The notes under the pieces were generated by a model. The model had not been told where the DNA came from. It saw only the letters and a program-made list of their open reading frames with translations, and searched no databases. A stretch of 64,000 bases of DNA from Mesostigma viride. Taxonomy: Eukaryota > Streptophyta > Mesostigmatophyceae > Mesostigmatales > Mesostigmataceae. The stretch covers positions 2,454,202 to 2,518,201 of the forward strand of contig RPFO01000027.1 in NCBI GenBank assembly GCA_009746045.1, in the 5' to 3' direction. Position numbers and translations under genes: made by a program. Position 1 is the stretch's first letter. Each line of letters starts with the position of its first letter. Of the stretch, positions 13,214 to 58,717 are shown piece by piece.

Positions 13214-13216
13214 GAG

Positions 13217-14736: not shown

Positions 14737-14920
14737 CGACGGCGGTGTCCCGCGGCTGGTTGCGCTGCGCATGCACCAGGGGAGCCAGGCAGACAGCCGC
14801 CCAGAGCTCCCTGCGCACACTTGCGCAGAGTTGGAAGCGTCCTCCCTTGCGGAGGGCCAGCACTTGGTCGAGCATCTTGTAGGCGTGGAAGCAGATGCTT
14901 AGCATACTCGTGCGAAGCAG
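14737..14920 (-). other. Spacer of D3 inverted dimer (RT/RNase H connection)
   Basis: Unique central segment; on the minus strand it continues RT into the RNase H side (CFHAYKMLDQVLALRKGGRF ... LAPLVHAQRNQP), collinear with D1. Its outer edge turns back into the mirrored GGATCCAACTG. Confidence 0.7.
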
Positions 14921-16420: not shown

Positions 16421-16431
16421 ACCGCGCCCTC

Positions 16432-17470: not shown

Positions 17471-17693
17471 GGCTCATTCCCATTCCGGCCGCCCCGTCGC
17501 CCTTAGCACTGCGCGGGAGACCTGCCTTCTCCTCCTTGCCTCCCCCGCGCGCGCCCGCTTTTAAAGTGCCTGAGCGTAGCACTGCGGACATGCCCTCGCC
17601 CCCCAAAAAACTAGCGCCAGCCGCGCTTGCCAAGCTCCTCACTGCATTCGCAGGTTGCTTCCTGCCATCCCCTCCTACGACAGGCGCCGTATG

Positions 17694-18117
17694 AGAGTTG
17701 GTGGCCAAGAGTTTGCTCAGTTGGCCAAGAGTTTGCTCACTTGATAGCCAGTATTCTAACTTACTGTGAAATCAATGGAGTAATATCACTTACCTCCCCC
17801 CAAGTGTTCCCCAAAGTAAAGTGTCGCCCCCCCCCCGCCCCCCCCGCTGCCTTCCCCTAGCCAGGTATGGTTTAGCCACTTGTGCATGAAGCAAGTGTAG
17901 TTTCCACAGAAAAACGATGCAAGTTGTAGTCATGACATGCACCATAATCATTATAATTCGTTAAGACGGCAGTTCCACTAAAAATCATGATAGTTCATTA
18001 AGACGGCAGCTCCACTACGTTACTTCTTAGCCGTTACAATACCAATGTCACAATCTAACGAAGAACGCCCATGAGATGCAGCCCAACAAGGCGATTGAGG
18101 TTGAAGCTAGGCTCGGC
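17694..18117. other. Non-coding, with two short tandem repeats
   Basis: TGGCCAAGAGTTTGCTCA occurs twice with a 20-base period (17702-17739). A TTAAGACGGCAGYTCCACTA unit occurs twice (about 17960 and 17996). No gene recognised. Confidence 0.5.
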
Positions 18118-26899: not shown

Positions 26900-28033
26900 T
26901 TGTGACAGGCCACCACCAATCCCAGCAGCTCCTGCTCATGAACAGGGTAGTTACGTTCTGCAGACGTCATACTCCTGGACATGTATTCCACTGGTTGAGG
27001 GCCCTTACCATGATCTTGCATTAGTACTGCACCAATAGCACCCTGTGAGGCATCAGACCTAACCTGGTATGGCAAGTCTGGGTTGGGGCCCACCAACAAG
27101 GGAGCAGTGGTAAGCTTCTGCTTCAACACATCAAAAGCTTGCTGGCATGCTGCAGTCCACTCAAAGGGAACATCCTTCTTGAGCAGGGCTAACAGGGGAC
27201 CAGAGATGGCCGCCATGTCAGGGATGAACCGTCGGTACCAGCCCACCAGGCCCAGAAAGGATCTGACATCCTGAGCTGACTTCAACACAGGCCACTCCAA
27301 AACAGCAGAGACCTTGCTGGCCTCAGGAGTCATACCTGCAGCGCTCAGCTGGTAGCCCAGAAACTTCACCTCTTGGCCCCACTCCACCTTGGACCTCTTC
27401 ACCGACAGATGATACTGATGGATCACCTTAAGGACCTCCTCCACGTTCTCCAGTGCTCCCTGAAGGTACGAGAGTGTACCAGAATGTCGTCCAGGTAGAC
27501 GACCACACAAGTCCTGAAGACCACCCTGGTAGTGTCACACAAGTGGGCAATGTCCTTGAACCTGGGGTTGCGAAGGTCAGGTGAGATCTGGGGCAGGGCA
27601 TTTCCAGTCAGGTGGCCAAAGATGGCATTGACAAACATCTGCATAGTGGCAGGACTGTTAGAGGCACCCATGGGCATTACTGTCCACTGGAACTGTCCCC
27701 ATGGGTAGAAAAGGCCGTCTTGGGGATGTCCTCAGTAGCCACCCTGATCTGCCAGAAAGCATGCCTGAGGTCAAACTTGGTAAAGAAGGCAGCTCCTGCA
27801 GTCCTCTCCAGCAACTCATCAATTCTGGGCAGAGGGTACCTGGACTTGACAGTCACCTTGTTCAGTCCCCTCAGGTCAATGCACAACCTCCACCCCCCAT
27901 CATGCTTGGGTACAAGCAAACACCCAGAACTGAAAGGACTGTTAGCTGGGAGGATCAGACCAGCCTCCAACAGGCCAATAAGTATGGTCTTCAGCTCTGC
28001 CATCTCTGCAGGGCCCATCCTGTACATAGGCAC
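26818..28033 (-). pseudogene. Reverse transcriptase and RNase H (E1)
   Basis: RT begins GPAEMAELKTILIGLLEAGL and has CLLVPKHDGGWRLCIDLRGL, FTKFDLRHAFWQIRV (motif A Asp), MPMGASNSPATMQ, and VVVYLDDILVHS (motif C, YLDD). The connection ENVEEVLKVIHQYHL...KFLGYQLS and FLGLVGWYRRFIP follow, then RNase H with RSDASQGAIGAVL. Frameshifts near 27677, 27500 and 26850 break the frame. Domain order and residues are typical Ty3/gypsy. Confidence 0.9.
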
Positions 28034-28840
28034 AAAGGAGGACGAGCACCCTCTACCAACTTGATGACATGTGTGATGGGTCCCTCAGGAGGATACTGGG
28101 GCATCTTGTCCTCAAAGATGGCTCCATACCTGTCCAACAAGGCATCATGCTGCTGTTGTTGCTCAGTGGTGACAGTAGAACTGACAGCATTGACAGAATG
28201 ACCACTAGCAGACTCAGGTTCATTAGGCACCAAATGCAGGAAAAAGATGTGTTCCACTGGATAGGTGGCCAAATAAGACAGAGTATGCTTGGCAGACCAC
28301 ACATGCTTCAGTAGGGCAGCCCGTTTCTCCTCCAAAGTCGGCTCTTGATCCACCCCTTTCGCACCTGCTTCCCCTCCCTTGCCATCATTGACAGCTGTCT
28401 GTGTGGAACAGCACTCAGTGGCTGTTCTTCTCCCCCCTGGCAACACACAGGTAGCATCCCACACTGTCCCATCCTTGAACTGGACCACCCTGTCAGGCCA
28501 AGAAATAGCAGGATTGGTGTCAGACAACCATGGGATCCCCAAAATCACATCTGCTGCCGTGAGGGGAATGACATCTGCTGTCACTTCCAAAGTCTGGGAT
28601 GAACAAACTTGGAAGATGAGCTGCACATAGCCAGGTGAGCAGCTTCTCCTGCCATCAGAATACTGCACCATGACAGGTGTGGGGTGGGCCAACACAGGCA
28701 ACTTCAACTCCTGCACCAAGGATGCAGCAATATAATTACTGCCAGCACCAGAATCAATCATAAACAAGCAAGCTGGCTGAGCCAAGGGACTGGCACGTTG
28801 AGGAGCCTAGCCTGAAACTTGAGTAAGTGACCTGGTACAG
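27991..28840 (-). pseudogene. Aspartic protease (E1)
   Basis: LFMIDSGAGSNYI carries the D-S-G catalytic triad, and ADVILGIPWL is the distal flap-region motif of retroviral-type proteases. It would process the gag-pol polyprotein. One T is missing near 28790 relative to E2, shifting the N-terminal part. The segment runs into RT after a frameshift near 28035. Confidence 0.85.
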
Positions 28841-28964
28841 GAGGACCCACAGGGACAGCAGGGTCAGAAGCACCCACAGTGTTCACTGGCCTAACGTCAA
28901 CAGCAGGCAGGTCAGACCTGGCCATGACAGAAGGATGACCTGGGGACCCAACTAGTTTTTTGAC

Positions 28965-30697
28965 TCAGGTGGGTCTGGGAGTGCTCCACTGCCGATGGTG
29001 GAAGCTGCTCAGGTGGTGCTGGAGGCTCATCCTCGTCCCCCCATCCTCCTCATCTGCCAGCAGCTGCATGAGAGCGTTCACCATCCTACGCTTATCCTGT
29101 CTGCTGAAGGGCCGAGCGCGGGACTGGAACCTCCCAGAGGGCTGGAAGTTGGGCTGGAACCCTGGCTGCATCCGGTGATCGCCAGCAGGAACGCCAGGAG
29201 GTAGGCTGGGTGGCCTGGGAGATGGCAGGGCGCCAAAAGGTCCTCTCGTGGCAGGGGGAAACTGGTCCCGTCTAGGGCAGTCCCGTGCAAAGTGACCTGG
29301 CTGGTTGCAGATAAAACAGTTACCCTGGGTGGGATCCAAGGCATTGAGCTCCCCCAGGAGGTCATCCAGCTGGTTCAGGGACTTCTTGATGGGTGGCACT
29401 GGCGTGGCCACAGGCTCCCACTTGACAGAAAAAGCAGGCACACGACAGAGGGTAGCACATAAGACAACACCTTGTCCCATTGCCAATCCACGTAGTCGAA
29501 CTGGGAGAAGTGCTTGTCCACATCCAGTCGCACGTGTGGAGCCATGCCATGCAGTAGTCTGTGAAGCGCCTCTGCGTCAGAGCATTGGGGAATCTTGGCT
29601 CTAAGGTTGGTGAATTGCTCCACGAACTGTGGCAGCGTCAAACCAGCCTGCGTACAGTTAGCCAGTGCGTCCCGATCCATGCGAAGCTGATCCTGGGGTA
29701 ACAGAAACCGGCGAAAGCCCAATAGGAGAGAGGGGAGGTCGGTACACGCACGTCCAGCCACAGAACGCAAAAACTCATCAAAACGGTCGCTGGCACTGTC
29801 GCTCATCCGCTGCCTAACCATTCTCTTCTGGATGTCCATCGTGAGACGTTCCTCTGCCTTGGGCCCATAGTTGGCGAAGTGGATAGCGAAGACATCCTGA
29901 AACTTGGTGGAGAAATGGTCGAAGCTGCGATGGGTAAGGTTGGTCAGCGATAGCTTGTCTACCGACTCCACCTTGGGAAAAGGAACAGTACGAGGATACA
30001 AAGACGTGAGCTCCATCACTGGGGCGTGTGGTGCATTCTGACTCTCCGGCATTGTCGCAGCCACCGAGAGCCGTGGAGGCTCATGCCCCTGTGCATCTGT
30101 CCCTTCATCAACAAAAGGAGCGTCAACCGCATATACCCTTCGTGTACCCAGTGTTGGAGACGGTTGATCCACGAAAACAGACTCTCCATCGCCCGCCTGC
30201 CCTTGCGACTCAAGTTGCTGCACACGCGCAATAGTCCTACCCACACTCTTCTCCAGCGCTTCCGCCACACTTCTAGCTCTCGCAGCTTCCTCACGTTCAT
30301 GTTGTAATCGAATTTTCTCCGCTGTCAGCTCGTCAGCCGCTAGCCGAGTGCCGTCTCGCCCCGGCACCGTGTTGTAGCCAAAACGAATAGCCGAACCGTA
30401 TTCGGGTGCTGGCGAACGCGTATCCTCCACGCTGGGGAACCGTGGTCCACCTCTACCAGCGCCACGCAGGGAGGGCTCGCCTGGTTGCACACCGAGGGGC
30501 AAGATGGAGAACTTTGGGCCGACCGACAGCGAATATCTGCGGGAAGCAGACATTAAGGTGGTATCTCCAAATAGTTGACGTCTGGGAGTAGATGATGAAA
30601 CCCTTTCATCACCGGTCGTCCGCGGAGCTGCTAAAGATGTGGTTGCATCTTCAACTCTCTTACTTGATAACGGTGGTTGTGTCTCCGGGTTACTCAT
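28965..30697 (-). pseudogene. Gag with CCHC zinc knuckle (E1)
   Basis: ATG at 30697 opens MSNPETQPPLSSKRVEDATT. A Ser/Thr/Arg-rich N-terminus (RRYSLSVGPKFSILPLGVQP) is followed by a Glu/Arg-rich coiled coil (LTAEKIRLQHEREEAARARS) and the gag core KLSLTNLTHRSFDHFSTKFQ ... LHRLLHGMAPHVRLDVDKHF. One base is missing near 29460, so the nucleocapsid part with CFICNQPGHFARDC (CCHC) lies in another frame. Confidence 0.85.
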
Positions 30698-30832
30698 CAC
30701 TCCATGGGTCGCGCATGCCGGACTGGGGAGACGTTACAAACTTGTGAGCTCAAAGCAGCTCTCAGAGCAAGACTGTCACATAAGGATGAGTCACACTCAA
30801 AAAACTGTCCGAACACACAGCATAACGTACCC

Positions 30833-37281: not shown

Positions 37282-37925
37282 ATCTTTGGCTGATTTGGGT
37301 TCTTTAGTGAGTCGTGATTAATTATTGCATAGTGGATTCGGACCGGCCCAAGGGGTCGATGGGCGAGTTTTATGTTTGTCAGTCTTGGGAACCTTGTACA
37401 AGTTTACTACCTGTACGGTTAACGCACTAGCCTGGGGGTGCGTGGCCACGTTGTTTGTAGTGGCGTTTTTCAGCACTGTTCAGGCCGGCGTGTGACGCAT
37501 GCCGGTGTTAATTAATTTAGGATGATGTCAGCTTGTGTGTCGGCGGGCCATGCCTTAAGCAAGCTAGGCAGGCAATGATCCGCAATTGTTTCTTTCCCCT
37601 CCCTCCCACCCTGGAGGCTTCTTGCTTCCGCGTGCGGATTGAGAAACCTTAAGGCCACTGTTAACTAGCTGCTGCATTTGTGGCAGGGCTCCACTTATTG
37701 TATTCAATCAAATGCTGGTCTTCTTGGGAGCTCAGTGATCTTAATGTTGAAAAGATCAAGGAGACAACCAGTGTCTGCCATCCGGGAAGAATCATGGAGT
37801 TGCGGAAAACTTATGGTGATATAGAAAGAGACACATGCTTATGTGACTGTCTTGCTCTTTAACATTGGAAGTCAGCCGTAACCGTGGTTTCTACTAGGTA
37901 GACGATCGCGACTTCATGTGGTAGT
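37282..37925 (+). repeat. End of E2 leader unit B and gag 5' flank
   Basis: Resumes CGAATCTTTGGCTGATTTGG, matching unit A at 20846 onward, and ends at the CAGTGATCTTAAT shared with 35233. About 180 bases of ordinary sequence lead to the gag ATG. Confidence 0.6.
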
Positions 37926-39647
37926 ATGAGAAGTTCGAAGACACAATCACCTTTACCCCCTATAGACCCAGGTGCAAGCGATCCATCATCATCTCTTGAA
38001 CCTATTACTAGGGAAGGTGCTGAGACAACTACTACCCATACTCCACGGCGTCGACTTGATTTCAATCGTACTTCTATGTCTGAAGTGAGGCGTGCATCGC
38101 TGTCCGTCGGGCCAAAGTTTTCTGTCATTGCGGCCGGCATTCAACCAGGCGAGCCATCTCTCACTGGCGTGGGTCGAGGACGCGGGTCGCTGTCGCCCAG
38201 GATCCCGAGCGAACGAACTCTGGTGCCTAGTGCATCATCATCGTTTCTTTTTCCTGTTAATACCACGCCAGGACGAGACGGGGCCCGATTAGCAGCAGAT
38301 CGTCTCTCAGCAGCAAATATCAGGCTACAACAAGATGAACAACACGCAGCGATGTATAGAAAGATGGTGGAGGAGGTGGAACAGGATGTGGGAAGATTAC
38401 GTCAGAGGATTACGGATGAGGAGGCGGCCATGCGTGAGATGGTTGCTGGAGTGGGGAGAGAGGCTCCTAGGGTGGGTGACAGAGGGGTTCTATCTTATCA
38501 CGCCACTGTTGCTACGGGGAATGCGACGCAGGATAGTGAGATCCAGGATCCCTCGCAGACGACATCGGTCACTTTCACCACGCCCGCCAGCGACGTCCCC
38601 GTGACCGTCACTCTGCCCCCACATCAAGGTTCAGCTCTGCCTTTTCAAAAAATTGAATTTGTAGACAAGGTTTCGCTTACCAATCTTACTCACCATAGTT
38701 TTGATCACTTCTCTACTCGATTTCAGGATGTGTTCGCTATCCACTTCGCCAACTATGGCAAGAGAGCGGAAGAAAGACTTTCTCTGGATATCCAGAAGAA
38801 AATGGTCCGTCAGCGAATGAGCGACAGTGCAACAGACAGGTTTGACGAGTTTTTACGTTCCCCAGCAGGTAACATTTGCAAGGATTTACCCTCCCTCATG
38901 CTGTCTTTTTGACGCTTCTTGCTTCCCCAGGACCAGCTTCGTCTGGACAGGGATGCTTTAGCCAACTGTACACAGGCGGGTTTGACGTTACCACAATACG
39001 TGGAGACGTTTACCAACCTAAGGGCGAAGATCCCTCAGTGCTCTGACGCTGAAGCTCTGCACAGGTTTCTCCACGGGCTTTCTCCTCAAGTCAGGGTGGA
39101 TATTGACAAGCACTTCTCCCCCCACGACTACGTCGAGTGGAAATGGGACACCGTGCTGTCATATGCTCTCACGCTGTGTCGTATACCCGACTTTTCCCTC
39201 AAGTGGGAGCCCCCTGCAGGTCCCCAAGCATCCTCTGTCAAGAAGCCCTTGAACCAGCTGAACGCTGTGACGGAGGAGCTCAACGCCCTAGAGCAGTCCA
39301 AGGGGGCCTGCTTCACCCGTGGTCAGCTAGGGCATTTTGCACGGGATTACGCCAAGAGGGACCAATTTCCTGCAGACACCAAGGGCCCCCAAGGTGTACT
39401 TCCCTTCACAAGGCCATCCACCCTACCTCCAGGAGTAAGCCAGAGCGACCACAGGATGCAGCCTGGGTTCAAGCCCAACTTTCAGGCGTCGGGCAGGGGA
39501 CCCTTCCAGCCGAAGGCCTTCAGCAGACAAGACAGGCGGAGGATGGTCAACGCCCTTTGGCATCTCCTGGCTGAGGAGGGTGGAGATGGGGAGGAGGACG
39601 ATCCAGATGAGCAGCAGGTGCAGCTTCCAGTCGGGGGCTCGTCTTGA
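37926..39647 (+). pseudogene. Gag (E2), one in-frame TGA and a degenerate zinc knuckle
   Basis: ATG at 37926 opens MRSSKTQSPLPPIDPGASDP. SLSVGPKFSVIAAGIQPGEP and VSLTNLTHHSFDHFSTRFQD align with E1 gag. A TGA at 38910-38912 (between LMLSF and RFLLPQDQLR) replaces a sense codon in E1; the frame is otherwise continuous. The nucleocapsid motif reads CFTRGQLGHFARDY: the second and last Cys of CCHC are lost. The C-terminus is acidic. Confidence 0.8.
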
Positions 39648-39661
39648 GACCACCCCCCTGA

Positions 39662-40351
39662 GCTGCCGAAAAATTAGTGGAGCCCCCAGGACTACGTCCA
39701 GCTGTGGAGTTGACTGGTTTGCCTGCTGTGCTTGTTCGTCCTGTGAACAACCTGTCTGCCTCTGATTCTGTCACCTCTTTGGGCCCTCCTATTCTCAGTC
39801 AGCTTTTGAAGTTTCAAGCTAGGCTGTTGAACGTGCCAGTCCCTTTGGCTCAGCCTCTATGTCTCTTCATGATTGACTCTGGTGTAGGGAGTAACTACAT
39901 CTCTACTTCCCTGGTGCAGGAGCTGCATTTGCCAGTCCTTCCTCACCCTGTACCTGTCAGGGTCCAATATTCTGATGGTAGGCAAAGTAACTCACCTGGC
40001 TACGTGCAACTGATGTTCCAGGTGTGCCCACTTCAAACCTTGTCAGTCACGGCAGACGTCATTCCACTCACTGCTGCTGATGTGATTCTGGGGATGCCAT
40101 GGTTGGAGTCTGCTAATCCTGCTATCTTGTGGTCTGAGAAGGTGGTGCAGTTTCATGATGGGTCAGTGTGGGATGCCACTACGGTGGTAAAGGGGGGAGA
40201 AAGACCAGCCACAGAGTGCTGTTCTACCAATGAGGCTGTCAATGGTGGGAGAGGGGTTGCAGGTGCTAAGGAAGACGTCAAGGTGCCTTCAATGGAGGAG
40301 AAACGTGCTGCATTACTTAAGCATGTATGGTCTGCCATGAAGCACACCCTT
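39662..40351 (+). pseudogene. Aspartic protease (E2), truncated by D1
   Basis: LFMIDSGVGSNYI holds the catalytic D-S-G and ADVILGMPWL the distal motif. The frame differs from gag and has no overlap with it (stop at 39659-39661). Similarity to E1 continues to EEKRAALLKHVWSA and ends abruptly at 40351, where the D1 terminal B repeat starts. Confidence 0.85.
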
Positions 40352-41249
40352 CCACTGTGCATTGCCTAGGTCCACTTCTGGTTGAAGGGCACCAGAACTT
40401 GTTTATTACACTATATGTTGAAGCCGACCGGACTAAGTAGACAGAGAGACATAAGGGGACGGTCCCGGCGCGAATATTTTTGGCGCCGAAAAATTCGCGG
40501 TACCCGTCCGTACCGTGAAAAAGTGGTGCACGGTGCGCGCACCCCTACCGGAGCTGGCCATGGCGACGTGCTTTCAGGCAGAGTAGAAAAAGATAGCTCG
40601 CGGAATGCAGAGAAACTGAGCGAATCTTAAAGACGATGAGTAAATGATACTATTTCGTAGCGGAGTTCGCGTTTTTTGCAGTGTCGATGATTTTATTGAT
40701 GACCATCGCCACGGGGGTCCAATCTGATGTTTTCGTCGAGAGGAATAAATTAGAATGCACGCTGGCGGCGGTGATTGTCAGGTTTTATGGGCTTTACCTA
40801 GCGTCAAGGATGCGTTTAAATTGTTATTGGTAAAGATTTAAAAAATTTGCTGTGTCGGCAAGATTTCCGTCATGATCGGTAAGACACTCTCCAGGCTCGC
40901 GGGATGCGCGTCTTATTATTCCATGGAAGGTTGTTCTTTCTTGCGCCGCTGGGCGAAGGACAATGCCGGTAATGGTACGATCGTGTGATCAACGTGACCC
41001 TATGAATGTTTCGCTTCCTTTATGGGTTATCAACGCAAGTTTTCGGCTTTTTTCCGTGCAGTTAGCGCCAGGTATAATGCCATTCTGTGCTGCGCATCGC
41101 CAGATTCCTGGCACCTTTCAGTGGTTTTCATGTACGTTGCATGGCTGGGACGTGTCAAAGCGTGACCGTGGCATATCGTCAAGTTGTCAGGGATTTGCTG
41201 AGTGGTTTCTTGGAAGGAGATTGCTAACAGCACTCAGTTTTGTGTGAAT

Positions 41250-44071: not shown

Positions 44072-45826
44072 TTAGCAGTGCTCACTGGGAGCTATGAAGG
44101 GGAGCACCTGCTCAGAGCCCATGACATACCACTCAGGCAAGGTGATCCCATGACGCTGACAATAATCTAGTACAGCAGAGTGACTGTTGGTGAGATCAGA
44201 CAACCACAGCCACGTAGCAGTCACCTCTAGCTCTCCCTTCCAGTGTACCTTAAACTGCAGCTGTTTAGTACGACCTTTCCCCTTCACCCTGTGAGCCAAC
44301 AACCGCTCCACTTCATAGATCTTCTCCCCCTCTGAATCCAACTCATAAGGCAAGGGGGCAGACAATCTGCCTGGCAAGGTGTTACGCCTGTACAGCTTCA
44401 GCTGTGCTAGGTGAAAAATATTATTCCTGAGCTTCCAGTGAGAAGGCACCTGGACCTGGACCACGGTACCATAGTGAAAGGTGGCCAACACTGGGTAAGG
44501 ACCCAACCAGAGTGGTTGCAGTTTCCTGCATTGCTCCTTCTCAGGCAGCACTCTGTTGGCTTCCAACAACACCAAGTCCCCAGGAGCTACAAAGGAATGA
44601 CTGGCCACCGTTTGCTGCCAGGCGTTAGTCAGGTACTTGTCCTGTGTCCTCAACAGCTGGGTAGCCACAATGCTGTGAGCCTCCTGGAAGGAAGCCAACA
44701 ACTGCTGGACTGAACCAAGACGTCGCTGGAAAGGGCCTTCAGCGTCTCTGTCAGGCAGTTCCAAGTCGAATGGTGTCAAGGGACACTGGCCATTGCAGAT
44801 CACGAAGGGGGACATCTGGTGAGGAGCCAGAGGAGAGTTGTTGATTGCGAACTCTATGAAAGGTATCTTCTTGTCCCAGTCCTTGTTGTCGTGTGTACAA
44901 TAGTGCTTTTGACACTCCCTGACAATTCTGTTCATCCTCTCCACCGCCCCAGTACTGGCACACCTGTATGCCACACCGAATGCCAGCTTAGTGTCTAGGA
45001 TGTCAAAGAATGACTTCCAAAACCCTGACAGCCAAAGGGGGTCCTGATCAGTGATGATCACTCTAGGCATGCCGTGCAGACGGTAGATCTCCTTCATAAA
45101 CAAATCCACACACTGTGCAGCGGTGAGATGAGTATTGCAAGGAATCAGATGGCACATCCTGGACAGCCTGTCCATGACCACAAGGATCCTGTCATTGCCA
45201 CCATCTGACATGGGAAGACCACAGATAAAATCCATAGTCACACTGATCCAAGGGCGCAGGGGAATGGGCATAGCCATGGGAAAGATGGGCGTGGCTTGGT
45301 TCCTGACCTTATTTCTCTGGCAGGAGTCACAGGAATCCACATAGGCCTTAACATCCTGATAAAGGCCAGGCCACCAAAACCTCTGCTGCACCTCATGAAG
45401 TAGCTTAGCATAACCAGGATGACACGCAGTCACATCGTCATGGAAACAATGTAACACTGTGGGAATGGCCATCTCAGGCACATACACTTTTCTAGTCACC
45501 GTGTGCTCTGCATCATGAGTGTGAACATACAGAACGCCCTCCCAGTATTCTACAGGTCTATTGCCAAAGTTGCCCCTCTGGATAGCTGCAGTAGCCATGT
45601 CCTCCGTCTTGGTGAAGGCCTTGATGACGTCCAGCAGGGAAATATTTAAAGGGTTAGGCAACACCAGGTCCTTGTCAGGTCCCAGGGGCTGCATCTGCAT
45701 CTCCTCTTCCTGCCCAGGGCTAGCCACCAACTGCTTGGATGAGACAGTAGTAGCTATAGGCCCTTTTGACCTTGCCATCACCTGAGAGGCCAACACCTTG
45801 GACCGGCCTACCAACACAGGGTCCAT
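44072..45826 (-). CDS. Integrase with C-terminal chromodomain (E3, open)
   Basis: A continuous 584-codon frame. From the N-terminus: a basic linker, zinc-binding HHCC (HPGYAKLLHEVQQRFWWPGL, CDSCQRNKVR), catalytic core with Asp in MDFICGLP, Asp in ITDQDPLWLS and Glu in GAVERMNRIV (DDE), a GPY/F-like module (LQPLWLGPYPVLATF), and a chromodomain (KIYEVERLLAHR, FKVHWKG, TWLWLSDLTN, VLDYCQRHGI). It would insert the cDNA, with the chromodomain guiding site choice. In the intact element it is the end of pol; a one-base deletion near 45865 separates it from the upstream frame. Confidence 0.85.
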   Translation of the reverse strand: MDPVLVGRSKVLASQVMARSKGPIATTVSSKQLVASPGQEEEMQMQPLGPDKDLVLPNPLNISLLDVIKAFTKTEDMATAAIQRGNFGNRPVEYWEGVLYVHTHDAEHTVTRKVYVPEMAIPTVLHCFHDDVTACHPGYAKLLHEVQQRFWWPGLYQDVKAYVDSCDSCQRNKVRNQATPIFPMAMPIPLRPWISVTMDFICGLPMSDGGNDRILVVMDRLSRMCHLIPCNTHLTAAQCVDLFMKEIYRLHGMPRVIITDQDPLWLSGFWKSFFDILDTKLAFGVAYRCASTGAVERMNRIVRECQKHYCTHDNKDWDKKIPFIEFAINNSPLAPHQMSPFVICNGQCPLTPFDLELPDRDAEGPFQRRLGSVQQLLASFQEAHSIVATQLLRTQDKYLTNAWQQTVASHSFVAPGDLVLLEANRVLPEKEQCRKLQPLWLGPYPVLATFHYGTVVQVQVPSHWKLRNNIFHLAQLKLYRRNTLPGRLSAPLPYELDSEGEKIYEVERLLAHRVKGKGRTKQLQFKVHWKGELEVTATWLWLSDLTNSHSAVLDYCQRHGITLPEWYVMGSEQVLPFIAPSEHC

Positions 45827-47043
45827 GACCCACTTCCTGGGCCTACCTCTGCTGCGCCTAGCAGGGCTCCCTCACCTGGCTGCTCTGTGGGAGTGGGCAC
45901 CACACCTTCAGGACTTCTCCTAAGACTGTCAGACAGTGACTGGACACCCTCCTGGACGCCTGTCAACTCTGGGACAGAGCCCTGGTCGATGAGCATCACG
46001 GGACCACCGTTATTCCCTACAGGTGGTGTCAACAGTTGAGAAACCTTCTGGTTGTTGGCCTGAGCTCTAGTCAAGGCTCCACACTCTACCACAGAAATCA
46101 GGGCAGCACAGATGTCCAAGTCCTCATGAAAACTTCCCATCAAATCCCTCCTCCTGGACAGGGCGTCAGGCACCACATTCTGCGTACCAGGAATGTACCT
46201 CACAGAGAAAGGTCCAAACCCCCCCAGGAACTCCATCCATCCAGCCATCCTCTTACTCATCCGGGTCTGTTCCAACACATGTACCAAGGGCCTGTGGTCA
46301 GTCATCAGGGTAATAGACTCGTTGCCCTGCCCATCCCTGGCGCTGCTGGCCACAGAAAACTGGCCCCCTTCAGTAGGTGTTCCCACTTGTGACAGGCCAC
46401 CACCAATCCCAACAGCTCTGCTCATGAACAGGGTAGTTACGTTCTGCAGACGTCATACTCCTGGACATGTATTCCACTGGTTGAGGGCCCTTACCATGAT
46501 CTTGCATTAGTACTGCACCAATAGCACCCTGTGAGGCGTCAGACCTAACCTGGTATGGCAAGTCTGGGTTGGGGCCCACCAACAAGGGAGCAGTGGTAAG
46601 CTTCTGCTTCAACACATCAAAAGCTTGCTGGCATGCTGCAGTCCATTCAAAGGGACATCCTTCTTGAGCAGGGCTAACAGGGGACCAGAGATGGCCGCCA
46701 TGTCAGGGAATGAACCGTCGGTACCAGCCCACCAGGCCCAGAAAGGATCTGACATCCTGAGCTGACTTCAACACAGGCCACTCCAAAACAGCAGAGACCT
46801 TGCTGGCCTCAGGAGTCATACCTGCAGCGCTCAGCTGGTAGCCCAGAAACTTCACCTCTTGGCCCCACTCCACCTTGGACCTCTTCACCGACAGATGATA
46901 CTGATGGATCACCTTAAGGACCTCCTCCACGTTCTCCAGTGCTCCCTGAAGGTACGAGAGTGTACCAGAATGTCGTCCAGGTAGACGACCACACAAGTCC
47001 TGAAGACCACCCTGGTAGTGTCACACAAGTGGGCAATGTCCTT
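45808..47043 (-). pseudogene. RT C-terminal part and RNase H (E3)
   Basis: VVVYLDDILVHS, FLGLVGWYRRFIP, RSDASQGAIGAVL and LMTDHRPLVHVLEQTRMSKR are present in three frames. Upstream RT is missing because the internal deletion joins codons just before the YLDD block to gag at 47043. Confidence 0.85.
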
Positions 47044-47788
47044 GCCTAACCATTCTCTTCTGGATGTCCAGCGTGAGACGTTCCTCTGCCTTGGGCCCGT
47101 AGTTGGCGAAGTGGATAGCGAGGACATCCTGAAACTTGGTGGAGAAATGGTCGAAGCTGCGATGGGTAAGGTTGGTCAGCGATAGCTTGTCTACCGACTC
47201 CACCTTGGGAAAAGGAACAGTACGAGGATACAAAGACGTGAGCTCCATCACTGGGGCGTGTGGTGCATTCTGATTCTCCGGCAATGTCGCAGCCACCGAG
47301 AGCCGTGGAGGCTCATGCCCCTGTGCATCTGTCCCTTCATCAACAAGAGGAGCGTCAACCGCATATACCCCTCGTATACCCAGTGTTGGAGACGGTTGAT
47401 CCACGAAAACAGACTCTCCATCGCCCGCCTGCCCTTGTGACTCAAGTTGCTGCACACGCGCAATAGTCCTACCCACACTCTTCTCCAGCGCTTCCGCCAC
47501 ACTTCTAGCTCTCGCAGCTTCCTCACGTTCATGTTGTAATCGAATTTTCTCCGCTGTCAGCTCGTCAGCCGCTAGCCGAGTGCCGCCTCGCCCCGGCACC
47601 GTGTTGTAGCCAAAACGAATAGCCGAACCGTATTCGGGTGCTGGCGAACGCGTGTCCTCCACGTTGGAGAACCGTGGTCCACCTCTACCAGTGCCACGCA
47701 AGGAGGGCTCGCCTGGTTGCACACCGAGGGGCAAGATGGAGAACTTTGGGCCGACCGACAGCGAATATCTGCGGGAAGCAGACATTAA
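47044..47788 (-). pseudogene. Gag middle part (E3)
   Basis: SASRRYSLSVGPKFSILPLG to the gag core DRLTRSF-type segment (KLSLTNLTHRSFDHFSTKFQ) and QKRMVRQ, ending at the internal deletion. The N-terminal codons lie on the other side of the piggyBac insert (50652-50792). Confidence 0.8.
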
Positions 47789-47801
47789 CCCCTCAACCGT
47801 C

Positions 47802-48760
47802 TTTGACTCGTGACTAAAATGAGTCACGAGTTGCACAGTATGCCACAGGTGCCCCCATTCAGCCTAATTATTTTTTCTAGACCATACTAGGAACCAAGCA
47901 TAACCATATTAGGGCCCACCTGGGGGTATAGTGGGTGGTCCCAGTGCTAGCCCCCCCTGCTCTATAAATAGCCCCCCCCTCAGGGGGGTACGGTGAGTGT
48001 GCGCGGTGACACCCTTATAATGGATGATAGACCCCTTTCCTCAATGAGTTGACCCTGGGGTTGGTTTTGTAGATAGATTTTTTAGTTAGGATGGGATACA
48101 AACACTAAAAATTGTAACTCCCCCAGGGACCCATCAGCTGGTGCTAAAAATAACTGGTGACTATTTCGAGTCGCGAGTTTTTGGGGGGCTAAAATAGGCA
48201 TCCTAGTGCAGTTTTGAACATGGAAACGATATGCAAGCATGGAGTATGGGCAAACATGCATGCTAACACTTATTCCAACCTGTGTGCCACCAATACCTGC
48301 CATAACCACTACAGGTCCCTGCCGGATATGATTGGAGACGACTACGCGCGGGCCGCGAGTACGGGGTTCACAACCTTATCATACATGATGGAGCACGTAT
48401 ACCTTGGATTTCACCCTAGTATTTCAGGGGGGACTGCAACTGTACCCAAGCACTACATCCAAACACTTACATGTCTTGTTTCACCCAGGGACCCACAAGA
48501 TAATGCTAAAAATAGCTGGTGACTATTCTGAGTGACCAGTTTGGGGGGGCTAGAATAAACATCCTAGTGCAGTTTTGAACATGGAAATGATAGGTAAGCA
48601 TGAAACATGCATGATTATGTTTATTCCAGCTCCTATGTGGCACAAATATATGCCACAATAAGCGTAAATGCTTGCAGACCCGCTGATACTGTGGTACTTA
48701 TTTTTACATGCATGATGGACCTTGCACACAAAGTCAAAACATCCCAGCACTCCTAGATAA
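47802..48760. other. piggyBac element 3' non-coding part
   Basis: TATAAATAGCCCCCCCC then GGGGGGTACGGTG (47960-47995), and two related segments with GACCCATCAGCTGGTGCTAA / GACCCACAAGATAATGCTAA followed by AATA..TGGTGACTATT (about 48130 and 48490). No gene. Confidence 0.5.
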
Positions 48761-51722: not shown

Positions 51723-52378
51723 CAACAGGTTGCCCGTGTCAAGGTAAGGCAAGGGCACATGACGTGCCCAGCCACCTCCTTGTACATTGTGGTCGAATTG
51801 GGCATGGTCAGGAGCCTTTTGGATGGCATAGGAAGTGTTAGTGTGCCTTAATACTCACTAATGCCTTCCTTAGCGTCTGCACAGGTGGCCAACTGCCAAA
51901 ATTAATAACTGCTACAGCTGAGCTCAGAATGCCACCAAACTTTGGTAGTGCCTTTTATGGTCATGACAGAATTCGACTATTACTTTTTAGGCCTAATTGA
52001 TGTGTTATGAGTGTGTATGGGGGCGCCCCGCCTAAAAAAGCGTATTTTTGGCCCAAAAATTAATAACTCAAAGGGATGTGATGATTTTGTTGATCCAATT
52101 AGGTAGAAACCATGTCCCATGACATTTTTATATGGGTATTACTTTTTTCATGCAACTTGTTCTCCCACTGTTCTGGGCAAGATGTGCCCCGGACAGCATT
52201 TTTTTCTATTTTTAGCTCATAGCCGGTGTATGGCTGGGGGTAGTACCCCCAACAAGTGGTGGTATGCATGCCCAAACATCATGTTTATGGTCCCCAAACA
52301 TCATTCAGTGGTTGTCAGTTGCATTTCTGTAGTTATTAGGGGGCTTCAGTTTTGATACAATTCCATGGGACCCTCCCC
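51723..52378. other. Right part of transposon X, no gene
   Basis: AT-rich, with GGGGGTAGTACCCCC (near 52235) and the terminal GGGACCCTCCCC. Short frames only. Confidence 0.5.
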
Positions 52379-52382
52379 ATAA

Positions 52383-53125
52383 AATATTTTTTGGCAGTCC
52401 TTGGCCGCCGCTTCCACTTGACCCCCCAAGACAAAACAAAAAGGGTGGGTGGGTGGGGAAAACTGATAAGCTGGCTTGGCAGCCATCACCACCTTGAAAT
52501 ACATCGCATCAACGTTGCATCCGTGACACACGCAAGTGCGGCGCCCCGCTGGCGCGGCGCTCCATGTAAGAATGACCTCAGAATACTACTGTACTAGATC
52601 TAGGACCCTGATACTACTTTTTTCAACATTGTACTACATTTTTATGATGTCACACATGTTCTGTCATGCCAGAACCGTTCAGCAACCACCTGGCATATCT
52701 TGAGGGTCCCTGGATACTAGTTGAAGTAGATTGAACTAGTTTGAACTAGTTTGAACTAGTTTGTACTACCTGTACTAACTTTGAACTAGTTCGAACTACA
52801 TCTGAGGCCCATCCAAGGCTGTCAGACCCTCCAGAGAGGGCGTGGCCACCCCGTTTGGCTCCCGCATGTCGACTTGCACCACTGGGCAACGGTGTAGCGC
52901 CTCCAAGGTAGCGGCGCACCTCCATCCCTCCGCTCCCCCAGGCAAAATCAGGGAATCCCGATCGTAAGATCAATCATCCACTGTGCATTGCCTAGGTCCA
53001 CTTCTGGTTGAAGGGCACCAGAACTTGTTTATTACACTATATGTTGAAGCCGACCGGACTTAGTAGACAGAGAGACATAAAATATTTTTTGGCAGTCCCT
53101 GGCCGCCGCTTCCACTTGACCCGCA
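52383..53125 (-). repeat. B2 (part), A2 and B1 repeats of D1
   Basis: Minus-strand order B1 (53125-52978), A2 (52975-52458), B2 (52440-52383, then 40450-40352). A2 contains an ACTAGT-centred decamer array at 52720-52800. Sequence matches D2 7959-8998 closely. Confidence 0.8.
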
Positions 53126-53211
53126 TCTCCAACCTGGCCGCAGGCCGTACATCTGGAAACCGCGTCAGGAGCCATGGGAGGGCACATCCTTACCCTCCAG
53201 CTGGTGAAGCC

Positions 53212-53227
53212 CTAGCGTGTCCGCTAG
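53212..53227 (+). promoter_or_regulatory. Hairpin 3' of D1 recombinase
   Basis: CTAGCG-TGTC-CGCTAG with outer GGTGA/TCACC pairing, about 30 bases past the YR stop codon on the element's sense strand. Confidence 0.5.
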
Positions 53228-53256
53228 AGTGCGCCTCACCGAAGTATGGCCGAAAT

Positions 53257-55347
53257 CTACGGCCCAAAGTGACGACGCCAGTCACGGGGGGGCAGTCTGC
53301 CCGCGAGGTCCCACACCACCTGGGGCACCCGCACCTGCAGGGCGCGGTGGAGCCCCACGTAATGGTCCACGGACGAAAACTGGCGCCACCGGCCACGCTT
53401 TTGGATGTCCGCGATTGGTACCCCGCGCAGGTAGTCATGGGTGGCCCCCCCGTGGCGCATGCTGTAGGGTGAAAACATCCCCCGCAAGCCAAGGAGGTCC
53501 CAGGCGGCGTGCCACCGCCGCAAGAAACGGCTGTAGCTGAGTGCGCCAAAGAGCAGCTCCTCGTGCGCCCGCCCAGCACACAGGGCGCCAAGCAACGTGA
53601 GTGAAAGTGAAAGGGGCTCAACAACCACCACTGCCTGGGCCTGGCCCTTGGCTGTCTTGGGGTCGCGTAGCAGCAGCGCACCCTGGTTACTGGGCCCCAG
53701 GCGGAAGTCCCCGCGCAGAGCCACGTCCCCCACGCGAAGCTTGAACGCTTCTCCGATGCGCAAGTATTGCTGAAAAACAATGATGCAGCAGCAGGCAGCT
53801 AATATCGAGCCTTGTGCACGAAGAATGTTTGCCACGAGGTACAGTAGCTGCCACGGGACGGGGTGAGGGCTCTGCACGGGAACTCGTCGCGCCCAGCCGG
53901 CCAGCAAGCGACGCGCCTCGTACCACCCCTTAATCTCGTTGGGGAAGTACAGCTGCAGCCCGCATAATGCGCGCACAACCATGGTCCGGCTTCCCCCTTC
54001 CTCATACACGCTGACCAGCCACTCACAAAAGACGCCTTCCGCCTCCGTCTTGGCCACGGGAGCGAGGGGTTGACCATACTCCACGTACGCCCTCAGCGCT
54101 CGGTGATATGCAGCTAGCGTGCTGGGCTGCACAGTGGCCTCCAGCAATTCCTGCCGCCCATGTGGCCCCGGATTGCTCTCCACGTCGCCATCCGCAGTGA
54201 GGTTGCGCACCCATCGACCACGACTGGGCGCGTCGGCCGGGTTGCGCTCCGACCTCACATACACCCAGTGGTAGCGGGTGTTGCTGGCCAGCCCTAGCGC
54301 GATCGCCCGGCGGCACCAGGCGTTCAGCCGGTAGGACGACGAACGCCCTTTGACGAGCGCACCGACAACTGCCGAATTGTCCACCAGCCGCACGTGACGT
54401 TGCTGCCAGTGAACCTGTGAGCGCAGGCCCCACTCGATCCCTTGCACAGCCGCACGAATCTCCTTCTCGTTGATGTGGGCCGAGGGATCGAGCCACCGGT
54501 GGGCAAGAGCGGTCCGCCACTGCGCCGCTGCCATGGCTCGGTGCTCAATCTCCCCTGTGCGCTCCACGCTGGCCGTCTCAGAGTCCACACAGAGCGTCTT
54601 CCAGCCCTTCCGCTCCCGACAGTTGGACAGGCCACGCACCGCAGGCGCCTCCCACCGGCTGTACACCACCCCAGAACCGTGGGTTGACGCATCAGTGGCC
54701 ACCACGGTGCAGCTCAGGGGCTGGTCGCGCTGCGCATGCACCAGCGGGGCCAAGTCCATTGCAGCCTGGAGCTCTTCCCTTACACTACCCCACAGCCGAT
54801 AGCTCCAGCCCCGCTTGTGCACCAGGACTTGCTGCAGCAAGCGGTAGGCGTGAAACCAGATGGACAGTAGACCCCGACGCAGCAAGTGGACCCACACCCA
54901 CCGTCCCAGCAACGAGGCCAGTTGGTGGTAAGTGGCCCGTCCACGCCCCAGCATTGCCTGCGTGTCGCGCACCAAGGCCGCCATCCGGGCCGCGCTCGGC
55001 CGCATGGACCCGTCCTGGCAGAACTCAATCCCCAAGATTTCCACCGGGCGCCCCTCCTCAGCTCTCTCCACCTTCTTCTCGTTGACCACCAACCCCTTGG
55101 GACCGTAGCTCTCCTCGCACGCCTTGGTGAGCACGGCGTTGGTCTCCTCCGCGCTCCGCCCATGGGTGACCCCCAGATCATCGATCATGACCAGCTGAGC
55201 GGGATGTGGGGGATCCTCCGGCAGCAGCCGCCACGCTGCACTGGCCGCGCTCTCCACCAACTCCAGCCGGTCCATGCCATCCCCGCGCACTGTGCGCACC
55301 CCCATCAAGTGCATGGGATATGACAGCCCTCTCTTGGCATCGAGCAC
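53257..55347 (-). CDS. DIRS-like pol: RT C-terminus, RNase H, 2A-like motif, tyrosine recombinase
   Basis: A 696-codon open frame. RT: AQLVMIDDLGVTHGRS holds the catalytic xxDD; NEKKVERAEEGRPVEILGIE and YHQLASLLGRWVW follow. RNase H: VVATDASTHGSGVV (first Asp), EKEIRAAVQGIEWG (Glu), VRLVDNSAVVGAL (Asp) and SERNPADAPSRG. Then LTADGDVESNPGP, matching the 2A consensus D(V/I)ExNPGP, with the skip point between codons 54166-54168 and 54163-54165. The ~303-residue product after it is a tyrosine recombinase: LRIGEAFKLRVGDV (Arg), YSMRHGGATHDYL (Arg), RGRW (Trp), DHYVGLHR (Tyr). The RT N-terminus is in another frame after a one-base deletion near 55345. Confidence 0.9.
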   Translation of the reverse strand: MLDAKRGLSYPMHLMGVRTVRGDGMDRLELVESAASAAWRLLPEDPPHPAQLVMIDDLGVTHGRSAEETNAVLTKACEESYGPKGLVVNEKKVERAEEGRPVEILGIEFCQDGSMRPSAARMAALVRDTQAMLGRGRATYHQLASLLGRWVWVHLLRRGLLSIWFHAYRLLQQVLVHKRGWSYRLWGSVREELQAAMDLAPLVHAQRDQPLSCTVVATDASTHGSGVVYSRWEAPAVRGLSNCRERKGWKTLCVDSETASVERTGEIEHRAMAAAQWRTALAHRWLDPSAHINEKEIRAAVQGIEWGLRSQVHWQQRHVRLVDNSAVVGALVKGRSSSYRLNAWCRRAIALGLASNTRYHWVYVRSERNPADAPSRGRWVRNLTADGDVESNPGPHGRQELLEATVQPSTLAAYHRALRAYVEYGQPLAPVAKTEAEGVFCEWLVSVYEEGGSRTMVVRALCGLQLYFPNEIKGWYEARRLLAGWARRVPVQSPHPVPWQLLYLVANILRAQGSILAACCCIIVFQQYLRIGEAFKLRVGDVALRGDFRLGPSNQGALLLRDPKTAKGQAQAVVVVEPLSLSLTLLGALCAGRAHEELLFGALSYSRFLRRWHAAWDLLGLRGMFSPYSMRHGGATHDYLRGVPIADIQKRGRWRQFSSVDHYVGLHRALQVRVPQVVWDLAGRLPPRDWRRHFGP
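54163..54189 (-). other. 2A-like ribosome-skipping motif GDVESNPGP
   Basis: Minus-strand codons ggc gac gtg gag agc aat ccg ggg cca. All invariant positions of the 2A consensus (D-V-E-x-N-P-G-P) are present, and it sits in a linker between the RNase H terminus and the YR N-terminal domain. Confidence 0.85.
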
Positions 55348-56343
55348 CCCGCCCCGTAGAGACAGTGCAGGTGGGCAACCTGTGCAAGGACCACCGAGTG
55401 GCTCCAGCCCATGACAAGGACCCGGAACCTGGGGTACAACTTTCGCCGTCGTCCCAGCTGGCCGACCTCATCGGACCACACGGGGGGCAGCGAGAAATAG
55501 GGGCGCCAGCTCTCAGGTACCTCGAACCGGTAATAGTAGGTGTCAAGGTCTGTCTTGCCCGAATAGCATGGCGCCCCCACACTCAGCTCAGCGACCTCGC
55601 CCAAGTTAGGCAGGTAACAGGTAGGCGGCTTGAGGAAGCGCCGGTTGCACGGCACCATATTCCCTATAAACCGCTGCCGTCGTTCGCTGGGCTCCACAAC
55701 CCCGGGGTCTTTCTTGGGGACGGCAAAACAGCCGTTCACCACAGGCGGCGCCTCCTCACTGTACTCGATCATCCGCCTGATGCTCAGTCGTGCGTACGCC
55801 GCATCGCTTGCACAACCATGAGACACCCGGCCCCGCCGCATCCACGCCCCCGCCTCCGCGTCGCATCTTTGTAGAATGTTGTTTATGTCCTCATACGTCC
55901 TCTGCCATGCCTCCGGCAGGCAGTCCAGCAGCTTGACACTACCTGCAGCTCCTCCTTTTGGCAGTGCCAGCCTCTCCGGGTCAATAATTTCGTATTGACC
56001 GCCCGGCCCGTATGGCGCGGGCTCTGCGTCCCCCGTGTCTGTCGCCTCCGCTACGGCGGTAAGCCGGCGGTTGTAGACGCGGGCAGCATCCTCCATCCCT
56101 TGTAGGGCGGCCCTTTGGGCGACGGTGCAGGGGCTCGCAGTAATAGCCTGCTGCTGCACCGCCGGTCCACCGGACCGTTCCCGGGTCCTGCCCCACAGCC
56201 AGTTCAGGCCCCTTGTGGCCCGCTCTTGACACCGCAGCCTTGCTCTGGCACGCAGAGCGCGCTGCAGCCTGCGGTTGGATCGCAGGCGGCTGCGGTCGAG
56301 CGGGGGACCATCTTCACTGGCAGCGGGAGCACACCCCTGCCCC
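55305..56343 (-). pseudogene. DIRS-like RT, N-terminal part (D1)
   Basis: Open frame continuing past the gag stop at 56344: GQYEIIDPERLALPKGGAAG, EEAPPVVNGCFAVPKKDPGV, RFLKPPTCYLPNLGEVAELS, GKTDLDTYYYRFEVPESWRP (motif A region), SLPPVWSDEVGQ and LVMGWSHSVVLAQ (motif B). It leaves the main frame near 55345, where one base is missing against D3. It is joined to 53257-55347 in a functional copy. Confidence 0.8.
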
Positions 56344-57086
56344 TCACTTGTCCTTTTTGGCCGCCGCCGCCGCCGCCGATGCCAGCTCCGCCTCCTGGCG
56401 AGCCGCCTTCCGCGCTGCCCGGGCTGCTGCGCTTCCAATAGTACTGCCCTCCACCAGTGGCAGCAGGTGCATCGCCCCGTTGTTCCAGCCGCTGGTCTTC
56501 TCCACCATGAGGAACGCCTCGACCACACGCGCCAGGTACTCGAAGCAGGCCAGCTCCGTCACCACATCCTCCCCCAGCTCTTGGATGGCCACATCCAGAA
56601 TGTAGGTCAGGTTGTTGCACACCAGATGGTGCGTGCTGTTCTTCCACCCCCGCGGGGGGCTCCCGGTGCAGCCCCAACGCCCTCCTGCTCCTTGCGAAGG
56701 GCCAAGCGGGCCTGCAGGCTCCCGTGCGCGACCTGGCGCGCATCCAGCACCTGCAGCGGCAGCACCCTGTCGTCGCGGTCCTTGACCAACAGGCGCCAGG
56801 CCACTTTGAAAGCTCGCCGGGGGAGACGCACCCCCTTGGTGGTTCGGCGCAGGTCTCTCTCCCTCACACGCTCCCGCGATCGACGCGAGCTCCGCTGGGA
56901 GGAGTCCCGACTCGTGCTCCGGCTGCTGGACCGCTGCCGCTCCTTGCGACGCTCGCGGGAGCGATCCCGACGCCCCTTGGGCTCCGCAGAACGGCCCCTG
57001 CCATGCCCACGTCGCTCCCGGGACTTGTCGCGGCGCGACCGAGCGCCACCCCTGCCCCTGCCACGGCCTCTGCTCTCGCTGTCGGA

Positions 57087-57149
<63 letters not shown>

Positions 57150-58330
57150 GCGACTCTCGTCGCTCCCACTGCTGGTGTCTGTCGAGCCTGGGCTGCTCCC
57201 GCGCCGCGCGCGTCTCTTCTCCTGGCGCTTGCTCTTCGGATGGCCCTTGCCCCCCTTGTCCTCGCGCTGGCTCTTCCCTTTCCTCGCGTCCCTCCTCTTC
57301 CCCCGCGCCAGGGCTTGCAACTCCGCTCCGATGAGCTCGCGGACGCCCGCCAGAAGGGCAGCATTCTCTGCCAGCTTTCGGTTCCTGCCCTGAGACTTCT
57401 TTCCCTTGGCGCGAGCAGCAGCAGGGGCCAGCTGCTCGCGCGCGTCCAAAAAATCCTCAGAGCTCGTCGCGTCCTCCTCTTCCTCGTCGGTGCCGTTGCT
57501 GGGAGGATCCTTTCGGGTCCTTTCGCCCCTGGCTGGACCAGTCTTCCCCTTGCCCCCAGTGGCCACTGGGGGCTTCTTCATCTCTAGAGTAATCACTACA
57601 ATACGGTTCATAGGAGACGCGAAATGAGTGAGAATGTTACCCGAGCTGTACCGAGGATTCGCACCGTCGATTCAACAATTGTTGGTTCGTTTTGCGCCAT
57701 TTGGCGAGCATCGACTGGAGCCTGAACCTAGCGGGGGGAATCATGCGGGGGAATCTTGCGGGGATTAAATTCCGAACCTGACTTTAGCGAAGTCCTACTG
57801 CATTTTGATTGGTTACACGGTACTACATTTTCGTCACTGAAAATTTTCTATAGTTGCGTTTGTGGATCGTGCGTTCCGATGAAAATTTCGTGTTCAGTGA
57901 CCAGATCACAATTTGATCCGGGCGCAAAATGATTGGCTTTACGGTATGAACCAAAAACGAAATTTTAGTATCTAAGCTCCGCAGCGCTTGCTGAATTTGC
58001 CCCGGAAGCCCGGGGGCACTTTCCCCGCTGAAAAAGGTGTCCGCGGAAGCGTATTGTAGTGATGGCCTTGCACAACATGGAACCCATGTCGGAATCACTT
58101 GACCCCTCACTAATCTGGAGCCCTGCAGTCTTGAGAAACTGTCCCAAGGATGTCAAACGACCCTCAGACATAGTAGTAAGCCTTTGGGCCCAGTTTGGAC
58201 CGAGATACTCAGTCAAGAACTTCAAAGTCGTTAACAGCTCCTTGCCCCCCTGAAAATACGATTTTTTCACATTTAATAAGAAATCTCGGTCTACTGCCTC
58301 AAGGGTGGTGTCTTCGTGATCACTAGCCAT
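56344..58330 (-). pseudogene. DIRS-like gag with Arg/Ser-rich region (D1)
   Basis: ATG at 58330 (MASDHEDTTLEAVDRDFLLN; an in-frame upstream ATG at 58342 adds four residues). KFLTEYLGPNWAQRLTTMSE and SDSDMGSMLCKAI run to the CACTA-like insert (57594-58061). Beyond it: LEMKKPPVATGGKGKTGPAR, DEEEEDATSSEDFLDAREQL, an Ala/Lys helix, poly-Ser, and an RS region (SRRDKSRERRGHGRGRSAEP, DRSRERRKERQRSSSRSTSR). A frameshift near 56640 precedes the conserved C-terminal block VTELACFEYLARVVEAFLMV and the Lys-rich end. The RS region probably binds RNA. Confidence 0.75.
57594..58061. mobile_element. CACTA-like MITE in D1 gag
   Basis: Inverted ends CACTACAATACG, AT duplicated at 57592-57593 and 58062-58063. 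D2 has the empty site TCTAGAGTAATGGCCTTGCA. CACTA-starting ends suggest EnSpm/CACTA; a two-base target is unusual but reported for algae-type members as far as I recall, so the superfamily is tentative. Non-coding. Confidence 0.75.
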
Positions 58331-58717
58331 TATAGAATTCAAAGATGAAGAAATTTCTCACAACTAGGCTCAATATTCCGCAATCTTGGAGACTGAGAAA
58401 AATTTCGGACTGAAAATTTGTCACTCAGTTCTACCTTGCGGACTTTTACTCCCGTTGCGCAAACCCGTCAAAACTTGGTGCGAAAACCGTCAAAATATTG
58501 CCCGCTATTGTCTCACGATTAGTTTGACACCAACTTTGTCAAAAACGGTGAAGTATTGCTCTAGTTGTGTTGAAAACTGATAAGCTGGCTTGGCAGCCAT
58601 CACCACCTTGAAATACATCGCATCAACGTTGCATCCGTGACACACGCAAGTGCGGCGCCCCGCTGGCGCGGCGCTCCATGTAAGAATGACCTCAGAATAC
58701 TACTGTACTAGATCTAG
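58331..58717 (-). repeat. D1 leader and inner part of A1
   Basis: Leader matches D2 5386-5622. A1 is present from GATCTAGTACAGTAGTATTC to GCTTATCAG; its outer part is separated by E4, which begins at 58718. Confidence 0.75.

Follow-up and report, generated by a model that had tools for sequence, protein, structure and literature searches.

A general question about retroelements that have no protease is how a single mRNA gives them a separate reverse transcriptase (RT) and integrating enzyme. LTR elements separate their proteins with a protease. Extra open reading frames (ORFs) are used by DIRS1 and many Ngaro elements (PMC3266345, PMC8547959). Ngaro elements, as described, have repeats in the order A1-[ORFs]-B1A2B2 and encode gag, RT with RNase H (RT-RH) and a tyrosine recombinase (YR), with no methyltransferase recognised; the YR occupies a separate ORF3, or lies in the same frame or a shifted one (PMC8547959, PMC3783388). 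The PAT, TOC and Kangaroo elements are YR retroelements with split direct repeats; the YR of PAT elements can be inverted, and six PAT-like families have been reported from chlorophytes (PMC3266345). In DIRS-type pol, a methyltransferase follows RNase H (PMC3266345, PMC3783388).

The core of 2A, or StopGo, sequences has been defined as (D/G/C/N)(V/I)ExNPGP, with classes distinguished by upstream residues (PMC12846837). One of these, motif 4 (DLTxDG), carries the signature WV(R/K)DLTx[acidic]G together with p12 D and p15 S; separation by its representative was almost 100% in reticulocyte lysate, and mutants in characteristic residues showed near-complete loss in almost all cases (PMC12846837). 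StopGo outside viruses is called rare in the same source. The original prediction for this DNA took 2A to be known from viruses and some non-LTR retrotransposons, which agrees with published accounts: 2A is established in L1Tc and APE-type elements (Odon 2013 and Heras 2006, as cited in PMC4981915 and PMC12846837). Those non-LTR elements resemble the one described here in being retroelements with a 2A, which here is predicted to part proteins as it does there; they have an endonuclease-type order, unlike this YR element. In non-LTR elements the 2A is close to the N-terminus of pol and does not precede an integrating enzyme.

The present element, found in a 64-kb stretch of the Mesostigma viride genome (the window), shares its repeats and its gag, RT-RH and YR, without a recognised methyltransferase, with Ngaro elements, and its split direct repeats and YR with PAT, TOC and Kangaroo elements. 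It differs in having RT-RH and YR in one frame with a 2A between them. With StopGo motif 4 of RNA viruses it shares the DVExNPGP core and the upstream signature, which is exact in one of the families found; the viral motif belongs to a polyprotein (PMC12846837), whereas here the motif belongs to a retrotransposon and lies between RNase H and YR. A 2A at this junction would be another answer beside protease and extra ORFs. It also extends StopGo to elements whose integrating enzyme is a recombinase, and provides natural, strongly conserved 2A sequences outside viruses.

The original prediction knew of no 2A that separates RT-RH from YR in DIRS elements, and our search of the open-access literature found, among the papers listed, no report of 2A in tyrosine-recombinase elements. 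In the accessible text, neither NPGP nor '2A peptide' appears in PMC8547959, NPGP does not appear in PMC3266345, and NPGP, '2A peptide' and '2A-like' do not appear in PMC6681497. The novelty is moderate, because Rao 2025, which surveyed viral and cellular proteomes with profiles (as described in PMC12846837), may include such elements; 2A is a known device, and its place here is apparently unreported. Alignment scans for relatives of the element returned 99 stretches in a collection of viral contigs (viral_contigs) and 85 in a collection of prokaryotic contigs (genome_contigs), none of them confirmed.

A tyrosine-recombinase retrotransposon of Ngaro/PAT type

The copy in the window spans positions 52378-58717 (table 1). 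In another copy of the same family (family a, locus L061), A1 (1-491) and A2 (5632-6122) are 99.8% identical and B1 (5468-5613) and B2 (6157-6302) are 99.3% identical; a copy of a second family (family b, locus L062) has the same repeat layout, and the 5′ end of A1 falls beyond the edge of both loci. Both copies have the order A1-[ORFs]-B1-A2-B2, the split direct repeats of Ngaro and of PAT/Kangaroo elements. The inverted YR that is an optional feature of the latter is absent, the YR being in line and fused in the frame of RNase H. The original prediction had called the element DIRS-like; because its repeats are split and direct, it is instead a tyrosine-recombinase retrotransposon of Ngaro/PAT type. 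It is also distinct from 2A-bearing non-LTR retrotransposons, which have an endonuclease-type pol and no recombinase, in that a recombinase domain (PF00589) lies in its frame.

Table 1. Features of the element in the window.
Feature	Position	Strand	Basis
A1 repeat, 5′-truncated, identical to last 146 nt of A2	58572..58717	−	self-comparison
Gag-like region by position, two overlapping frames	56344..57671	−	ORF reading
RT N-terminal part of window copy, in a frame other than that of RNase H/YR	55305..56558	−	by-eye comparison
736-aa open frame with the end of RT (C-terminal part), RNase H, 2A and tyrosine recombinase	53257..55467	−	ORF reading, Pfam
C-terminal part of RT and RNase H; predicted upstream product if skipping occurs	54166..55350	−	motifs by eye; family b homology
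2A/StopGo peptide WVRNLTADGDVESNPGP	54163..54213	−	direct reading; kept in lineages a, b, c, g
Tyrosine recombinase; predicted downstream product, Pro435 to stop	53257..54165	−	PF00589; catalytic boxes by eye
B1 repeat	52977..53122	−	L061 self-comparison and window alignment
A2 repeat	52458..52958	−	self-comparison
B2 repeat, truncated, 47 nt, 98% to B1	52378..52424	−	self-comparison

A DIRS1-like structure was considered and rejected: self-comparison of L061 and L062 gave direct repeats only, with neither inverted terminal repeats nor internal complementary regions. Two inverted pairs were found in the window, and neither connects the ends of the element. No methyltransferase was recognised by Pfam in the family a and b frames, a result to be read with the reservation that Pfam also misses the RT, so that a diverged methyltransferase could escape it. 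The YR comes directly after RNase H and B1 starts 134 nt past the recombinase stop, so no place is seen for a methyltransferase.

In family b, RT, RNase H, 2A and YR follow one another in a single frame of 909 aa (L062), to which the 736-aa frame of the window is homologous from about residue 40. Comparison with the same frame identified the N-terminal part of RT in the window copy, a frame that has no Pfam match. The window copy is damaged, with RT in two frames and with A1 and B2 truncated. An open frame of 734-756 aa, resembling that of the window copy, is present in 33 of the 50 family a places listed; in five of the 50 the frame measures 852-1421 aa, beginning at residue 39, and RT may be continuous there.

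Within the 736-aa frame, VMIDDL (residue 93) is read by us as an RT box, and TDAS (258), HINEKE (331), VDNSAV (362) and NPADAPSR (409) are presumed RNase H signatures. LRIGE (569), YSMRHGG (668) and DHYVGLH (701) were assigned by eye to what we take to be the catalytic boxes of a tyrosine recombinase, and residues 551-705 match PF00589 (Phage_integrase; E 8.5e-7); the family b recombinase matches the same profile at E 3.8e-4, under its curated cut-off. The only Pfam match in the RT/RNase H part is to PF00336 (DNA_pol_viral_C), at E 0.06 and under cut-off. As Pfam misses RT, which it does not recognise in the complete 909-aa family b frame either, RT and RNase H are identified here by their motifs and the weak PF00336 match. 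NCBIfam gave weak Xer matches only (best E 0.03), searches against solved structures gave nothing significant (single matches at E 0.19 and E 0.83), and Rfam had no match within the window. A single-sequence AlphaFold2 model of the recombinase had a mean pLDDT of 39.3, and for this reason gave no support for any claim.

The gag-like region consists of two overlapping frames in family a and in family b (L062 149-1926), a layout that could come from a frameshift, from an intron or from decay common to both. Pfam had no match for its 354-aa frame or for the first gag-region frame of family b.

The 2A sequence at the RNase H/recombinase junction

The original prediction placed GDVESNPGP at 54163-54189, between RNase H and the recombinase in one frame. 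Direct reading of the frame and the PF00589 match downstream bear this out, and the coordinates stand; the strand, which had been left unstated, is minus. The motif is nested in WVRNLTADGDVESNPGP, residues 419-435 of the 736-aa frame, and this block lies in frame, preceded by the end of RNase H (NPADAPSRG) and followed by the tyrosine recombinase, so that a StopGo core is found in frame between two proteins.

Damage to the window copy could be taken as a sign of chance or of an annotation artefact in a decayed repeat, an explanation to which we give next to no credence. NPGP occurs once in the six frames of the whole window, and the back-translated 2A core has 177 exact matches in the genome (439.9 Mb in 2243 contigs, including the window) where the backwards control pattern has none. 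The motif is therefore far beyond chance, and a chance origin is contradicted by these counts; in addition, family a and family b differ in the ten-codon core by synonymous changes only. The pattern DLTxDGDVExNPGP has no match in genome_contigs or viral_contigs, and GDVExNPGP has none in viral_contigs; as the one collection covers prokaryotes and the other viruses, these zeros are hardly informative on other eukaryotes.

Four lineages (a, b, c and g) share W-x-R-(D/N)-L-T-x-DGDVExNPGP at the RNase H/YR junction, which reads WVRNLTADGDVESNPGP in a, WVRDLTADGDVESNPGP in b, WRRDLTSDGDVEANPGP in c (as in L031) and WLRDLTQDGDVEANPGP in g. Family c, 47% identical to a, is longer by 7 residues ahead of the block and by 3 residues behind it, the block itself being retained. 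By codon string, 67 of the 177 core matches are of the family b kind. A further 35 have Ala at x: seven carry the string of a context without YR (family e, below) and 28 do not, and the ten of these 28 that were read are all YR-type, nine belonging to family c and one to lineage g. The loci read were L031, L038, L051, L052, L055, L056, L077, L078 and L079 for family c, and L076 and L080 for lineage g.

Copies missing NPGP were looked for. The core is intact in all 61 family a and b places listed by the protein search (50 a and 11 b; 61 of 2488 candidates were scored), and it is held in the diverged lineages c and g. Of the 61, 30 were read and nine, all family a, were judged from fetched sequence; the other 22 (11 a and 11 b) were judged by the nucleotide position of the core, reading frame aside. 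These places amount to few independent events, because they are mostly near-identical and the query contained the motif; the independent evidence for retention is the four lineages. Variants and broken copies were also found. A b-like copy (L037) has DVERNPGP, in a family a copy (L073) the sequence ahead of the block is out of frame, and in family c the block reads WHRDLTSDG in L055 and DLTNYGDVEANPGP in L078, has a frame change within it in L056 and is rearranged immediately upstream in L079. The broken family c copies (L056, L078 and L079) are as expected for decayed copies, and are no proof of selection.

The recombinase of these diverged copies is itself altered in places. L031, L038 and L052 have a common frame change early in the recombinase, where L051 is in frame, with stops elsewhere; in lineage g copy L080, Ser stands where the recombinase Tyr is presumed to be.

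At the codon level, amino acids are held while codons differ, in the comparison of a with b and in lineage g, which is the conservation that the original prediction had proposed to check. Within the 17-codon block, a and b differ by 8 synonymous changes and 1 nonsynonymous change (pS 0.66, pN 0.026); at equal pS, pN in the flanks is 0.20 (RT-RNase H) and 0.26 (first part of the recombinase). Against family c, pN is 0.13-0.16 in the block and 0.37-0.40 in the flanks. Nonsynonymous changes over the three pairs of a, b and c are equally low in 10 of 471 17-codon windows, identity across all three pairs is as good in 11 of 471, and nonsynonymous changes between a and b alone are equally few in 21 of 471, each count including the block itself and overlapping windows. 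The block ranks with the most constrained stretches and is under purifying selection. Nearby RNase H stretches, such as KGRSSSYRLN, are roughly as conserved, and 2A is therefore not set apart by its conservation alone.

StopGo class and the predicted translation products

The family b sequence WVRDLTADGDVESNPGP fits motif 4 exactly (WV(R/K)DLTx[acidic]G, with G, D and S at p11, p12 and p15), and family a, to which the window copy belongs, deviates at one position, having N for the class D (NLTADG). Family c has R for V and lineage g L for V, and both have A at p15. These assignments to a known active upstream class were made by eye against the class definition in PMC12846837, not by FIMO.

Since the upstream and core residues fit a class that is active in lysate, ribosomes very probably skip the Gly434-Pro435 bond, in full or in part, and release RT-RNase H and a recombinase with Pro as its first residue. 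RT and RNase H, which are written in one frame with the recombinase, would be parted from it during translation by a class-4 2A. Nascent WVR(D/N)LTADGDVESNPG in the ribosome exit tunnel would block formation of the Gly-Pro bond; RT-RNase H would be released carrying a 2A tail, and translation would resume at Pro to yield free recombinase in a near one-to-one ratio. That skipping takes place in this organism, that the element needs free recombinase and that the products have this ratio are what we infer from the sequence.

Instead, RT-RNase H and recombinase might stay fused for good, with no skipping, and the block might be a conserved linker of structural role whose likeness to 2A is convergent. 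In favour of this, the block is part of a single open frame and the adjoining end of RNase H is well conserved too; in fungal Ngaro elements the YR ORF can share the RT-RH frame (PMC3783388), so a fusion without 2A may be workable. The conserved part, however, is the StopGo consensus complete with class-specific upstream residues, whereas the x of DVExNPGP and the linkers on either side vary in sequence and length, and families d, e and f carry a similar peptide elsewhere in the genome. We regard a permanent fusion as improbable.

Skipping as proposed here could also be partial by design, so that fused RT-RH-YR and free YR are both made, to control dosage or to serve a dual function. Such a variant falls within the skipping explanation and is the less likely form of it. 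Sea-urchin proteins with partial separation have two useful forms (PMC4981915, PMC12846837), and family a deviates at one class position; against this, separation by the class representative was almost complete (PMC12846837) and family b matches the class exactly.

Related 2A sequences and the genomic distribution of the elements

Sequences of the form DLT(K/A/R)DGDVE(S/A/P)NPGP are carried by three further families: d (L032, L040, L041, L053, L054 and L064), e (L039 and L065) and f (L066). No YR was seen in the fetched stretches of these families, and the L064 frame, the only one of the three families run against Pfam, had no match. In all three families an in-frame FIN..R..RxW(R)A block stands upstream of the 2A, and the sequence after the 2A resembles a splice donor.

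The family d 2A, KRDLTKDGDVESNPGP, is in an exon-like unit between AG and GTACGT. A 243-nt unit with the 2A is present in tandem copies in L040 and L041, the remainder of which is masked; in L032, L053, L054 and L064 a microsatellite coding for Trp-Leu-Val-Gly comes after the 2A unit. The 2A of family e, which has seven places by codon string, reads WEKDLTADGDVEANPGP, and that of family f WDLTRDGDVEPNPGP.

Families a and b occupy at least 117 places (50 a among the matches listed, and 67 b) on 26 contigs. Two or more of the listed places are held by 23 contigs, and in 22 of these 23, by plain count of the listed places, they form a single stretch of 16-169 kb; the exception is C1690, where one 89% copy lies 0.9 Mb away. 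Examples are C335:2507461-2608705, C1480:2258525-2369310 and C1579:2619511-2732174. Cluster-bearing contigs include long ones (C1, 14.3 Mb; C1106, 12.1 Mb; C1579, 10.1 Mb; C2133, 7.6 Mb), and C2146 is uninformative on clustering because it is only 50 kb long. The 28 Ala places outside family e are scattered over the genome.

The family a and b clusters may be centromere-like. Zepp and ZeppL elements form one cluster per chromosome at algal centromeres, and the likeness lies in a single, highly localised retroelement cluster per chromosome or contig (PMC8226300). The two cases differ in that Zepp and ZeppL are LINEs and families a and b are YR elements, and in that a centromere is here presumed from the clustering.

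Taken across all these contexts, the DLTxDG 2A could be a movable separation module, fixed before the four lineages split, that frees the integrating enzyme and recurs in the exon-like sequences of families d, e and f, with two lineages having taken over one centromere-like cluster per chromosome. We put this forward as a tentative reading, possible but somewhat short of probable.

The window sits at the edge of the element cluster on its contig. At 4876-8723 and 11373-17694 it holds rearranged family a pieces and head-to-head family b pieces, without the 2A region. Within the element itself, about 464 nt at 57592-58063 are missing from L061 and are flanked by 27-nt inverted repeats (81%), and this insert resembles a small TIR element that has landed inside the YR retrotransposon. 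Elsewhere, pieces judged by eye to be Ty3/Gypsy-type gag-pol lie at 24921-30733, 37902-40369 and 44072-47863. Three stretches of them were run against Pfam (44075-45871, 45811-46452 and 47024-47863), and the first encodes an integrase with a C-terminal chromodomain (PF00385, E 3.8e-6).
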